Source of the DNA: Flexilinea sp.
GTDB lineage: Bacteria; Chloroflexota; Anaerolineae; Anaerolineales; Anaerolineaceae
NCBI GenBank assembly: GCA_017432685.1
Contig: JAFRIR010000052.1
Location: forward strand, 1-59,355
Direction: 5' to 3'
Length of the DNA stretch: 59,355 bases
This document shows, one piece after another, positions 724 to 5,757 of this stretch. The notes beneath the pieces were generated by a model. That model made no database searches and was not told where the DNA came from. It saw only the letters and a program-made list of their open reading frames with translations. Positions within the stretch are counted from its first letter, which is position 1; every line of letters starts with the position of its first letter. A program made the position numbers and the translations under genes.

Positions 724-3700
724 ATGAAATTCGTTCTAAAAAAATCCGTCTTTTTGCTGCTTGTTCCCATTCTCATTTTGTCTTGTTTTTCCGCTGTTCA
801 CGCAGAGTTGATTAAAGGTGCCACTGATCAATCTACTTTTGCCAAAGACGCAAATCTCGCGACGGTGACGATCCTCAATTTAAAAGATTTATCAGTAACG
901 GCTGAACTTGTATCTTTTTCCGATTCCCAATTGACAGATGTAAATGGAAATACAGTAAACCCCAAGCTTGAAAATAATGAACTCTCATTTCCAAATGCTT
1001 ATATGAGTCCACGCACAACCTATGATGCAGGCAACTTTACCGTAAAATTTAATCAGGCAGCCAGGTTAAGTGACGGGACGCCGAAGGATCTATATATTGT
1101 GTTTACCGGTGTAAAAATTTTCACATGGGTAAATAATAGCAATCCAGTTACCCTATCTCCTATTTTGTTCTTCGCGCATCATACTGGGAATGATAACAAA
1201 AAGGACTATCCGTGCGTATCAGTGAAGTCTAAAGAATCAATTGGAGTTAGTTACGATTCTTTAAAAGTCTATGTTGATGAGGCTGCATATACAGACACTT
1301 TTTTCTATACGATTTATGGTGTAAATGTTAAACGATCAGAGGATTATTCAAATAAAATGTATTATATGGCAAATCAAAATAACAGATTTTCAGAACGTGT
1401 CATGCTTGATCTTTCCGGCACAACCGGGAACATTTATATTCCGAAAAATGGAAAATTGTATCCGGATGGCTATGAAGCTCCAAATATATTTAAGGCGCCT
1501 TATAACCAAAATGAAGATAAAAATCAGCAGCTAAATAATGATACGTATGAATCAGGTTTTGCCGTTCTTGCCAACGCGAAAACCGGGTTGAATGCAAAAT
1601 TTTGGTCAAGTGCCGGTCTGGATTTGTATTTTCTCCCCGACGGCATAACGCATACCATCACCTCTTCCTCCGGTACCGGGGGAAAAATAGCGACCGGACG
1701 CAATGGGACAGGCACCGATCTGCCCGGCGGCGGAAACGAGGATACAGCTGAAAAGCGAACCTATGACGTTCCTGACGGAAAAGACGTGACCTATACCATG
1801 ACCCCGAATCCGGGCTATGTGATGAGAAGTCTCACCATCGACGGCCAACAAAAATCCCTGCCGAGCCTGATTGACGGGGTTTACAAATACACTTTTGACG
1901 CAGCGAAAAACCAGGTGACCGGAGATCATACCATTCATGTCGAGTGGGTTCAGGTCATCGACGTCACAGTCACGAAAAACTGGGCGGATAACAACAACAG
2001 CGACGGCACCCGGCCGAAAACCGTTACGATCCAACTTCTGCAAAACGGAAACAAATCAGTCACTCGTGCGGATGGGACAGTGGAACCAATGAAAAAAGCA
2101 ATCACCAACCCAGCCACGGAAGTTACCTTTACCCGTTTGCCAAAGATGGATCCGGACGGAAATGTGTATAGATACAGCATAGAAGAAGACTCGGCATTCA
2201 AAGACAATTATGCGGTGACGATCAGCCCGGAAAGCTTATCCGAATCCGGTACGATCACTGTCACCAACACAAAGATTCATCAAGTCACCTTTCCTTCGGT
2301 CATCAAGAGCATTCAGGGACCATCCTCCGCGTATGAAGGCGCAAATTATACCTTCAATATCACAGCCTCCCCTGTTGATGCACCGATGCCGAAGGACGGA
2401 AACGGAAACGAAGTCACACGCATTACGATTCCTGCCGGTGAAAAAGGGCAGGCGAAAGACTTCGGTGCCATTACATTTGAGAAAGCAGGAACCTATGTTT
2501 ATACCGTAAAGGAAGCTGTCGATTCCAACGGTGGATATACGGTCACTCCCGGATCCTATACAGTCACCTATGAGGTTGGAAGCAATGGCGCCATCACCGG
2601 CCCGAACATAAAAAGTGATAATACTTCAAATTACAATGACAAAGAACTTGTTTTTGAGAATGATTATCCCTTCGAAAGCGGACTTTGGGCAATCCCATCG
2701 GTCATCAAAAAAATCAACGGCATTGAACCGGAGAATCCGGATACTTTTGAATTTCTGCTGCGCCGCGATCCGAAATATCCGGACTCTCCTATGCCAAACG
2801 GTGAAGATCAAAAGGTTATTTCTATCACCGGCGCAGGTGAGGCTGACTTCGGTGAAGTGGAATTTGTCTGCGAAGATGATGCCGGCTGCACGTACAAATA
2901 TTATATCCGGGAAGTGATCCCGGCAAAGCCAATCAAAGGCGTCACTTATGATGAGACGGTTTATCACGTCACGATCAACGTAAAAAACGGAGAGCTTGTT
3001 TCAAGAGAGGTTGAAGGCGGATCAGTTGTCGGTGATACCTATGTCTTTACCAATACCTATCCCGATACGATCGAACCGGTTGAAATTGGTGTGCACAAAG
3101 TCGTTGAAAACGGGGACTGGGCGGGTGATGACCGCTTCGATTTTGTCCTGCAGGCAGTCAGCAAGCCGGAAGATGTGGAAAAATACCCCATGCCGGTGCT
3201 TTCGGAGGAAGAGGGTGATGTTCCGACCAAAACCATTACCCTCAACGGTACAGGCGCTGAAAATAATGAAAAATTCGCCTCTTTCGGTTACATTCAATTT
3301 GAAGCTCCGGGTGAATATACCTATAAGATCACAGAAAAGAAAGGAAATCTCTCGCGGTACGATTACGACACCAATGAATTTACCGTTACCTGGGATGTAA
3401 GTCTGAATGAAGATGGAACAGCATATGTTCCTGTCCAATATGTGAAAAATCAGAGCGGAAGTACGGTCCATCCGGAAGTCCAGAATAATGCGGTAACTTT
3501 CCGGAACCTTATCCTGCCGGAAGGTGCGGGAGATGATCTGCATGTAGAGAAGGTGATCACCGGATATGAAACGGATGAAGCGGCAAGGTTCCGCTTTTCA
3601 CTGACCGGTATGCCTTCCGATCTGACGGTTCCGCCAATGCCGGCTGAAGACAATACGCATAAAACATACACATGTAATTTTGAAGATCCCGACAAAAGTG

Positions 3701-5757
3701 TTTTGGTTTGCGCTCTCAAAGGCGGCAGTCTGAACTTCTATTTCGGTGAGATCGATTTTCCGGAAGACGGAGAATATTCTTATACTGTGGAGGAAATCGA
3801 TGACGGGAATCCGGATATCGTCTACGATACAGCAAAATATGAAATCACTTATGTCGTGGAATACGGGGAATTGAAATCGAAAACCGTTATAAAAGACGGG
3901 GTAACTTATACGGACAAGACGCTCGTTTTCACCAATGAAAATAAGAAACGCCCGGATTCTGATTTTGCTCACGCACATATTGGAGTTGAAAAGAAGATTT
4001 TGGGTGGTGAGCCGGACGAGGCTGATGTCTTCAATTTCACGATGAAGCGTCTGAACAGCAGCAATCCAATGCCCGAAGGTGTGTCCGGAGATACCGCTAA
4101 AGTTTCGATCAAGGCTTCCGATGAAGAATTGACGGCGGATTTCGGAATGATCACCTTTGGGACCCCGGGCGTTTATGATTATGAGGTTCGTGAAGTTCTG
4201 GATGAACTGGATCATTACCGGTATGACTCGACTGTCTATACCGTCAGCTGGACCGTTACCCACAGCACAACGGATGAGGATTCTCCGCTGCGGGCTGAGA
4301 TGACAGTGCTGATGGATGGGTACCGTGAAGACACCCGAAGAAGCAGTAAACTTCTTTTCGAAAATGTTTTGCTTGAGCCCAACGAAGCCGTTTTGATGGT
4401 CAACAAATTCGTGCGAGGAGGTACGCCGGATATTTTAAGCCGGTTCCTTATCACGCTCAAAGGGGTCAGCAATTCGGTGGAAGGCCTGGATAAGAACCCG
4501 CTGCCGGAAAGCTGTGAGGATGATCACTGCGCTGTGGAAATTCTCAATACCGGACATGATTATTTTCCAAAAATTGCCTTTGAAAAGGATGGGGAATATA
4601 TCTATGAGGTACGTGAAACACCTGGCAGTTCCGAAGATTATGAATATGATGGATCGGTTTACACGGTGAAATATATTGTTCGCGACGGCAAGGTTCAGCG
4701 TCCGCCGGAGATCAAAAAAGACGATGTGGCGCTCGCCAATCATAACATGGCGGTGTCCTTTGAGAATCACTATCTGCAGGGTGTGGATGAGATGGATCCA
4801 ACTGTGCGCAAAGTGATCAAGGGTAATCCGAACCGTGACGATGTTTTTACCTTTGAATTCAAGGCTGTTGAAAATGACCGGAAAATTCCGGTGGTATCCA
4901 TGCCGATGCCGTATGGTTCCGACCTGACAAAGGGGATCAAGATTCTTGAAATCAATGGCAGAGGCCGGAAGAATTTCGGTACGATCGCCTTTGAAAACCC
5001 GGGAAAGTATGTTTATACGATCCGGGAAGTTCCGGGAGATGCGGGATATAATTACGACAGTACGATCTACACGGTCACCTATGATGTCATCGAAAACGAA
5101 ACAGGAACACTTGTTCAAAGGTCGATCAAAAAAGGCGGAGTGGATTACTCCGGCGAGTTTTATGAATTTACCAACAAGTGGGGCTCAGGTGATGATGAGG
5201 AAGACGATGGTGGTGATGGTGACGGCGAATCCGGCAGCGGCAGCTCTCTGCCCCGTACCGGCTTTGCGCCTGGTGTGGTGACGCGGCTGCCGAAGCAGCG
5301 GGTGGATTATTCTGTCTATTCACAGCTGCGGCTGCGCATTCCTGCCCTCGGTGTGGACGCTGAGATCCTGGGCGTCCCTGAAAGGGAAGGTGACTGGGAC
5401 GTGAGCTGGCTGGGAGACAGCGTCGGCTGGCTGCAGAACACGGCCTGGCCGGCTTCCTCCAAAGCCGGGAACGCGGTGATCACCGGACATTCCTACAACT
5501 ACCTGGGACGCCCGGGGGTGTTCTCGGGCCTCGACCGGCTGAGCTACGGCTGTTCGATTTCCGTCACGGCTTTTGGAGAGACCTTCGTTTACCTGGTCGA
5601 AGACGTGCAGACGGTCTTTGCCGATACGCCTCAGGTGATGTCACAGAAGACGGACGTGCCGGAGCTGACGCTGATCACCTGCAAATACTACAACGAGGCC
5701 ACGAACGACTACGACGGCCGCGTGGTGGTGAAGGCGAAGCTTGCGGAAATCAGGTGA
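724..5757 (+). CDS. Giant pilin-like adhesin with LPRTG motif and fused C-terminal sortase domain
   Basis: A secreted surface protein of 1677 residues. I place the start at 724 because a signal peptide follows directly (residues 1-27, ending AVHA); the frame is open upstream to about 556. Order: unrecognised AT-rich head (about 28-300), InlB-like repeat (about 300-408), Cna-B-like domain (about 411-517), then seven pilin isopeptide-type domains (about 520-1486) of the streptococcal Spy0128/FctA kind. Each of the seven shows an N-terminal Lys, a central Glu in Y-x-Y-x-(V/I)-x-E and a C-terminal Asn in F-x-N, the triad of Lys-Asn isopeptide bonds. Domains 2, 4 and 6 also carry Cys pairs. An acidic Gly/Asp/Glu linker leads to LPRTG (1509-1513), followed not by a membrane anchor but by a sortase domain with TGH (His1589), LITC (Cys1653) and Arg1666. 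Sorting substrate and enzyme are thus one polypeptide. Composition runs from very AT-rich at the head to GC-rich at the sortase. Confidence 0.88.
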   Translation: MKFVLKKSVFLLLVPILILSCFSAVHAELIKGATDQSTFAKDANLATVTILNLKDLSVTAELVSFSDSQLTDVNGNTVNPKLENNELSFPNAYMSPRTTYDAGNFTVKFNQAARLSDGTPKDLYIVFTGVKIFTWVNNSNPVTLSPILFFAHHTGNDNKKDYPCVSVKSKESIGVSYDSLKVYVDEAAYTDTFFYTIYGVNVKRSEDYSNKMYYMANQNNRFSERVMLDLSGTTGNIYIPKNGKLYPDGYEAPNIFKAPYNQNEDKNQQLNNDTYESGFAVLANAKTGLNAKFWSSAGLDLYFLPDGITHTITSSSGTGGKIATGRNGTGTDLPGGGNEDTAEKRTYDVPDGKDVTYTMTPNPGYVMRSLTIDGQQKSLPSLIDGVYKYTFDAAKNQVTGDHTIHVEWVQVIDVTVTKNWADNNNSDGTRPKTVTIQLLQNGNKSVTRADGTVEPMKKAITNPATEVTFTRLPKMDPDGNVYRYSIEEDSAFKDNYAVTISPESLSESGTITVTNTKIHQVTFPSVIKSIQGPSSAYEGANYTFNITASPVDAPMPKDGNGNEVTRITIPAGEKGQAKDFGAITFEKAGTYVYTVKEAVDSNGGYTVTPGSYTVTYEVGSNGAITGPNIKSDNTSNYNDKELVFENDYPFESGLWAIPSVIKKINGIEPENPDTFEFLLRRDPKYPDSPMPNGEDQKVISITGAGEADFGEVEFVCEDDAGCTYKYYIREVIPAKPIKGVTYDETVYHVTINVKNGELVSREVEGGSVVGDTYVFTNTYPDTIEPVEIGVHKVVENGDWAGDDRFDFVLQAVSKPEDVEKYPMPVLSEEEGDVPTKTITLNGTGAENNEKFASFGYIQFEAPGEYTYKITEKKGNLSRYDYDTNEFTVTWDVSLNEDGTAYVPVQYVKNQSGSTVHPEVQNNAVTFRNLILPEGAGDDLHVEKVITGYETDEAARFRFSLTGMPSDLTVPPMPAEDNTHKTYTCNFEDPDKSVLVCALKGGSLNFYFGEIDFPEDGEYSYTVEEIDDGNPDIVYDTAKYEITYVVEYGELKSKTVIKDGVTYTDKTLVFTNENKKRPDSDFAHAHIGVEKKILGGEPDEADVFNFTMKRLNSSNPMPEGVSGDTAKVSIKASDEELTADFGMITFGTPGVYDYEVREVLDELDHYRYDSTVYTVSWTVTHSTTDEDSPLRAEMTVLMDGYREDTRRSSKLLFENVLLEPNEAVLMVNKFVRGGTPDILSRFLITLKGVSNSVEGLDKNPLPESCEDDHCAVEILNTGHDYFPKIAFEKDGEYIYEVRETPGSSEDYEYDGSVYTVKYIVRDGKVQRPPEIKKDDVALANHNMAVSFENHYLQGVDEMDPTVRKVIKGNPNRDDVFTFEFKAVENDRKIPVVSMPMPYGSDLTKGIKILEINGRGRKNFGTIAFENPGKYVYTIREVPGDAGYNYDSTIYTVTYDVIENETGTLVQRSIKKGGVDYSGEFYEFTNKWGSGDDEEDDGGDGDGESGSGSSLPRTGFAPGVVTRLPKQRVDYSVYSQLRLRIPALGVDAEILGVPEREGDWDVSWLGDSVGWLQNTAWPASSKAGNAVITGHSYNYLGRPGVFSGLDRLSYGCSISVTAFGETFVYLVEDVQTVFADTPQVMSQKTDVPELTLITCKYYNEATNDYDGRVVVKAKLAEIR

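Follow-up and report, generated by a model that had tools for sequence, protein, structure and literature searches.

The window protein and its surroundings

The window, by which we mean the whole 59,355-nucleotide stretch analysed here, is one contig (C18) of an assembly of 3.97 Mb in 151 contigs (87.5% complete, 4.7% contamination). Its forward strand carries at 724–5757 an open reading frame with an ATG at 724 and a stop codon at 5755–5757, which encodes 1677 amino acids; a longer version starting from the TTG at 556 is also possible. As judged from the translation, the product is a secreted protein with a C-terminal sortase. All features described below lie on the forward strand. The hydrophobic N-terminus looks like a Sec-type signal peptide (residues 1–27, positions 724–804), with the cleavage site placed by eye between AVHA and E. 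It is followed by a Cna_B isopeptide domain (residues 414–516, positions 1963–2271; PF05738, E 9.4e-18) and by seven FctA (Spy0128-like) isopeptide domains at 2290–5184, the outer limits of which are estimated (PF12892, E 1.2e-98); TIGR03786 likewise matches seven stretches of the protein. The first-pass annotation, made from the letters of the window, had counted seven isopeptide-type domains, which is right for FctA, while the Cna_B domain brings the total to eight and gives the protein a pilin-type composition.

The stalk ends in an acidic Gly/Ser/Asp/Glu linker (residues 1488–1508, 5185–5247), after which the translation reads LPRTG at residues 1509–1513 (5248–5262), then Phe1514. A conserved linker of the form FAPGxxTxLPxQ...Y leads from the motif to the sortase (5263–5331, columns 17–42 of the alignment A4 described below, with Y32 in 80 of 81 rows). 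The sortase catalytic domain itself covers residues 1537–1673 (5332–5742; PF04203, E 1.8e-21; TIGR01076) and scores above the curated cut-offs of both models, with 76.6 bits for PF04203 (cut-off 26.6) and 40.7 bits for TIGR01076 (39.35). Its predicted catalytic residues, all invariant in A4, are His1589 (5488–5490), Cys1653 (5680–5682) and Arg1666 (5719–5721). Both the order of motif and catalytic residues and the idea that a sortase domain takes the place of a membrane anchor, as proposed in the first reading, are thus confirmed by the translation and the PF04203 match, and a simple hydropathy rule finds no anchor-like stretch in the last 220 amino acids. This is not a classical LPxTG sorting signal, as LPRTG is followed by 164 residues which hold the sortase domain and in which a membrane segment was not found. 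Instead, LPxTG and a sortase with intact catalytic residues are on a single chain, which is the layout of a self-processing fusion. None of the NCBIfam models for sortase classes F, C, D, GN and E reaches its own cut-off on this region (bits against cut-off: 60.9/166, 44.4/160, 37.5/165, 28.5/158.25 and 27.8/160, respectively).

Eight neighbouring ORFs (5.9–17.6 kb) were scanned, and no evident partner of the window protein is found among them. Two lack a Pfam match, and the other six resemble a GNAT acetyltransferase, FtsK, a CDP-alcohol phosphatidyltransferase, a periplasmic sugar-binding protein, an ABC transporter ATPase and a 7TM kinase-type protein, the last of these matches being weak and just below cut-off.

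Recurrence and conservation of the LPxTG-sortase end

A PF04203 search reveals 21 sortase domains in the same genome. When an alignment of 19 fused copies from this genome (A1) is used as the query, 23 matches are obtained, including one on contig C62 which is absent from the PF04203 list and was read separately. About 21 ends in the genome have the arrangement of LPxTG plus sortase: 20 of 20 readable fused copies have [LMI]PxTG ahead of the sortase, and the 21st is split by contig ends, with the sortase on C3 and the motif on C115. The motif is usually found about 30 residues before the first sortase strand. One copy, L022:6447-9233 on contig C143, stands apart with 56 residues, as its linker segment looks duplicated, with the second motif decayed; the other 18 rows of A1 have 26–32. 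Together with the genus relatives L254 (39 residues) and L240 (30 residues) it belongs to a subgroup with IP[ND]TG[ILY], read as IPDTG in both relatives. Many copies in the genome also show, in the columns of A1, a short F[FY]R[ILP]-like stretch about 10–20 residues before LPxTG. Four cassette genes adjoin each other on contig C7 (L023:604-12759), three on the same strand and one on the opposite strand. A cassette protein on contig C16 (L036:598-1860) has a lipobox-like signal peptide (FTAGC), so that by its sequence it possibly combines a lipid anchor at one end with sorting at the other.

For the conservation analysis we aligned the window protein with the best 80 of 287 relatives from a scan of genome contigs (A4, 81 rows). 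Every one of these 80 record titles names Chloroflexota or groups within it, Longilinea arvoryzae and Ornatilinea apprima among them. The pattern [LIMV]PxTG is present in 78 of the 80 relatives, the other two reading APATG and TPATG. The first-pass annotation had made its self-processing idea depend on conservation of LPRTG ahead of the sortase in homologues, and on this point A4 favours it: the Pro, Thr and Gly of the motif and the following Phe are invariant in 81/81 rows, equal to the catalytic His, Cys and Arg, a figure which may be flattering because the 80 relatives are those nearest to the window. The motif Leu is found in 70 of 81 rows and the x position carries 1.3 bits, while each of the 11 columns preceding the motif carries at most 0.97 bits, so that conservation begins at the motif. 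No Lys position in the cassette is invariant or nearly so.

Other sets, which overlap with each other and with those above, are somewhat looser. Among 30 genomes of the family, own genome included, the motif is present in 30/30 loci returned (28 PxTGF and two PxSGF). In two genus relatives [LI]PxTG precedes the sortase in all 20 copies read (6 of 7 and 14 of 31 matches), 16 of them with Phe next; the second of these genomes, with its 31 matches to the cassette profile, possibly holds more cassettes than the genome of the window. In a sample of the phylum [LIV]PxTGF is found in 27 of 30 loci returned, the exceptions being L180, a stand-alone 203-residue relative with LPASA near the motif position, L181, which is a partial match, and L182, a stand-alone sortase. 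On the basis of the 20/20 copies in the genome and of the invariance in 81/81 rows, the fusion of LPxTG to a sortase is not a product of chance, and an assembly artefact is ruled out by the presence of the same end in 80 named loci.

How far does the cassette extend? Of the family's 101 genomes, 77 have a match to A1; in 23 of the 77 it is only weak (E above 1e-20, counted by hand) and probably due to a stand-alone sortase. A profile, A3, matches 226 of 400 sampled Chloroflexota genomes, with at most eight candidates scored per genome. Among the matches listed, those that are strong and cover the motif are found in 27 of the 36 genomes of the window's order, and none outside the order is both strong and motif-covering. 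The order is taken to be Anaerolineales, to which Longilinea, one of the named relatives, belongs. The best of those listed outside the order (G371, 196.8 bits) starts at profile position 30, and the remaining ones score at most 101 bits and mostly start at positions 30–35. In 20 regions fetched from outside the order a sortase-like ORF pattern is present in 19, and there are three loose motif matches (IPRAG, VPLAG and VPQSG), none of them LPxTG. A strict limit to one order is spoken against by the many of the 80 relatives that are titled merely 'Chloroflexi bacterium'. The mention in the first reading of similar LPxTG-sortase ends in other Anaerolineae proteins, and of a possible lineage-wide design, is well supported by the 80 named Chloroflexota loci and the listed matches in the order.

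A strict limit is also questioned by L112:9001-9519, a cassette with MPATGF whose record bears the title Herpetosiphon sp.; this genus belongs to another class, so that misnaming or transfer may be involved. Eight plasmid records show a match, and the three opened contain one Chloroflexota cassette and two motif-less sortases (Planococcus and Streptomyces). The former (L232, CP069395.1) is a plasmid of the unplaced Chloroflexota strain ZRK35, in which the cassette gene, with LPQTGFAPG, is annotated merely as a DUF11 protein and adjoins a heliorhodopsin gene. The scan of viral contigs gave 19 pattern matches, and none of these is a relative.

The proteins that carry the cassette are diverse. 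Five other passengers from the genome are DUF285 (BspA-like), Flg_new_2 with YDG and MBG, subtilase with Big_2, and two with the sortase domain only, by Pfam. In 13 further ones MBG_2, FctA, Cna_B, LRR_5, DUF7379, PGAP1, Abhydrolase_1, Flg_new, subtilase, DUF6273 and CopC are found, each family in one member of these 13. FctA, so prominent in the window protein, is therefore present in 1/13 and 0/5 of the other cassette proteins scanned in the genome. Five of the 80 named loci were scanned and contain Exo_endo_phos nuclease-like domains (two), a C-type lectin, Big_5 (two, one of them below cut-off), LTD, Calx-beta and CopC. In pairwise BLAST comparisons (E 1e-5) passengers are similar in 8 of 171 pairs from the genome and cassettes in 166 of 171; for the 80 named loci the numbers are 752 of 3160 and 3160 of 3160. 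The cassettes are thus alike and the passengers mostly are not, so that the same cassette recurs on mostly unrelated passengers. Those that could be identified, including pilin-like, BspA-like, subtilase and InlB-like types in the genome, are kinds of surface protein. A simple rule finds a signal-peptide-like start in 15 of 19 copies from the genome and, among the named copies whose upstream end is complete, in 42 of 54. Over the last 220 residues, hydropathy peaks are found in 0/19 and 4/80 copies, respectively, and the four begin where the sortase domain starts, some 140 residues short of the C-terminus. Since the same end is carried by subtilase, nuclease-like, lectin-like, BspA-like and further passengers, a device for pili only is ruled out; the spread of passengers points to a general module for anchoring (or release).

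Possible mechanism of the cassette

We propose that the last 169 residues form a modular sorting cassette, in which a single chain carries both the enzyme and the motif that it would act on. Once the protein has been exported by Sec, its C-terminal sortase would cut the Thr-Gly bond of the preceding LPxTG, in cis or between neighbouring copies, and the passenger would be held as a thioester on Cys1653 until its transfer to an external amine, most likely that of a peptidoglycan or lipid II stem peptide. Adhesins and surface enzymes would thereby end covalently anchored and a sortase fragment of about 165 residues would be shed. Such a single-use, self-processing module, cutting its own Thr-Gly and transferring the passenger to an external amine, probably one of the cell wall, is in our opinion the probable function. 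Self-processing, as suggested in the first reading, remains the most economical explanation of the sequences, although its version there, a one-gene pilus releasing or polymerising its stalk, is too narrow. Cleavage, action in cis rather than in trans and the identity of the amine are all features that we infer. The motif proline lies 76–80 residues before the catalytic His in A4, close to the 71–72 residues of class C lids (see below), so it is plausible that the motif can reach its own active site in cis. The gene mraY, for lipid I synthesis, is found in the genome and therefore wall amines should exist. Pilin-like, BspA-like and InlB-like proteins are kinds usually attached to cells, and because of these passengers anchoring to wall amines appears to be the most likely outcome, with release and cross-linking less likely. 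Two observations weigh against this reading: no membrane anchor is evident that would keep the chain near lipid II after export, and Lys is missing from the conserved columns of the cassette.

The same lack of an evident anchor would fit a cassette that mainly hydrolyses its own Thr-Gly bond and so frees the passengers into the medium, and hydrolysis is indeed a side reaction of an engineered self-processing sortase fusion according to PMC9985607, where it counts as a loss. A transpeptidase would, however, be an unlikely choice for plain release, and the cell-attached kinds among the passengers point the other way as well, so that we regard shedding as very improbable. A different fate of the thioester can also be envisaged: each protein could wait in this charged state for a strong amine on the wall, on a partner protein or on a neighbouring cell, acting as a reactive, self-attaching adhesin. 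Here the cut would be reversible, as the new Gly end, which is the leaving group, remains part of the enzyme. We hold this only tentatively and consider it rather unlikely.

Are there conventional substrates and enzymes which could do the work in trans? The genome has one stand-alone sortase, of 313 amino acids and without an LPxTG-like motif (C102). A protein on contig C84 (L256:1303-2937), without a Pfam or NCBIfam match, has a classical-looking end with LPHTGG, a membrane segment and a basic tail, and the notion that there are no classical substrates at all is thereby ruled out. This signal scores 10.9 bits to TIGR01167, below cut-off. From its sequence the C84 protein is a candidate substrate of C102, and with such a signal the genome probably has a small conventional system beside the cassettes. 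Profile searches of the genome for classical sorting signals gave nothing clear, and the same profiles also give matches in 14/14 and 13/14 control genomes. Two other weak matches (on C68 and C12) were read and are not sorting signals; among the remaining weak ones, those in L068–L072 were screened by a rule. The same screening rule flagged three more ORFs of 83–102 amino acids in about 279 kb of stretches from the genome, which are taken as spurious. A DNA pattern for LPxTGF, which also admits FPxTGF, has 28 matches in the genome against 5 for the reversed control. Nineteen of these are in ORFs of at least 60 amino acids, of which 12 continue into a sortase, one (C115) runs into a contig end and six (70–413 amino acids) do not run into a sortase. 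The longest three of the six (123, 236 and 413 amino acids) lie across longer ORFs of other frames and appear to be spurious; the others have 70–72 amino acids.

The stand-alone sortase and the C84 signal suggest that a trans system probably exists and that it might act on cassettes as well. LPxTG would then be cut by C102 or by other cassettes, and the attached sortase would cross-link other chains into a network or an FctA pilus, which would suit both the presence of about 21 cassettes and one stand-alone sortase in a single genome and the isopeptide-type stalk of the window protein. However, in all copies that could be followed throughout, the motif is joined to a sortase, and processing in trans would not call for such a fusion; the 12 of 19 pattern ORFs that continue into a sortase argue in the same direction, so we find processing in trans improbable.

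Relation to known sortases and sorting systems

Sortase anchoring is seen as a two-part system, with many substrates and few membrane-held enzymes. Like the sortase A type of sorting in Gram-positive bacteria, the cassette proteins are secreted with a C-terminal LPxTG and involve a His/Cys/Arg sortase. In the sortase A type, however, one protein bears the motif, a membrane segment and a basic tail, and a second protein is the sortase, whereas in the cassette the sortase domain itself comes after the motif and a membrane segment is not evident. A Chloroflexota lineage appears to use one-part sortase anchoring, which in one genome extends to about 21 surface proteins. If true, this would account for the way in which adhesins and surface enzymes are fastened to these bacteria. 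Motif surveys limited to the last 50 residues, as is the one described in PMC12617251, would miss the cassette. The solved relative with the best profile match is PDB 4d70 (E 3e-16), which we take to be SrtD of Clostridium perfringens. This is a stand-alone enzyme, in contrast to the fused sortase here, and the window cassette does not reach the cut-off of the class D model.

The likeness to class C (pilus) sortases goes further. The two are related in sequence, and in class C a segment similarly placed ahead of the domain is able to occupy the active site, according to PMC3493515. This lid is a DPY, DPF or DPW pseudo-substrate, as opposed to the full LPxTG of the cassette, and class C enzymes, unlike the cassette, are separate proteins with a C-terminal membrane segment. 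In the same paper the lid prolines of GBS SrtC2 and SrtC1 are at positions 85 and 91 (the latter between Asp90 and Tyr92) and the catalytic His at 156 and 163, from which we compute spacings of 71 and 72 residues respectively, and the lid overlaps the LPAT substrate, prolines included, in superposition.

The LPxTG of the cassette could accordingly be seen as a substrate-mimicking lid, an uncut inhibitory plug, with the sortase acting on other proteins once the plug moves. The nearly equal position relative to the catalytic His speaks for such a role, and so does a profile alignment with the class C sortase 24rr, in which its lid falls just behind the motif, a few residues further on, where the alignment is weak. 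Yet what the lids share, according to PMC3493515, is D-P-aromatic, while the cassette keeps a full motif in which x is free and Thr-Gly invariant. In addition, against about 21 such enzymes only a single classical-looking separate substrate came to light in the parts of the genome that were read, and a plug alone leaves unexplained why conservation sets in at the motif on unrelated passengers. We therefore give the lid little credence. Conversely, though this is rather unlikely as well, the class C lids could be decayed relics of a substrate cut in cis, and if the self-processing cassette is real the origin of the lid becomes testable.

The protein family and, by inference, the chemistry are those of the known sortases; no paper among those listed in searches of part of the literature describes the arrangement as a natural repeated cassette. 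On the best reading, that of a self-processing sorting module, the cassette is the natural counterpart of engineered LPxTG-sortase fusions, of which STEPL is one, and would offer natural self-processing cassettes for protein engineering. These constructs have passenger, LPxTG and sortase on one chain, as the cassette does. The order is identical in the autocyclase (target, LPGTG, linker, SrtA), where, according to PMC9985607, an intramolecular thioester forms and then gives way to an internal or external amine. BISOP, with the reverse order of sortase, LPETG and target, is also self-cutting according to PMC2901362 (citing Mao 2004). The cassette, whose cleavage is predicted, differs from these fusions in being natural and in having many paralogues and a conserved linker.
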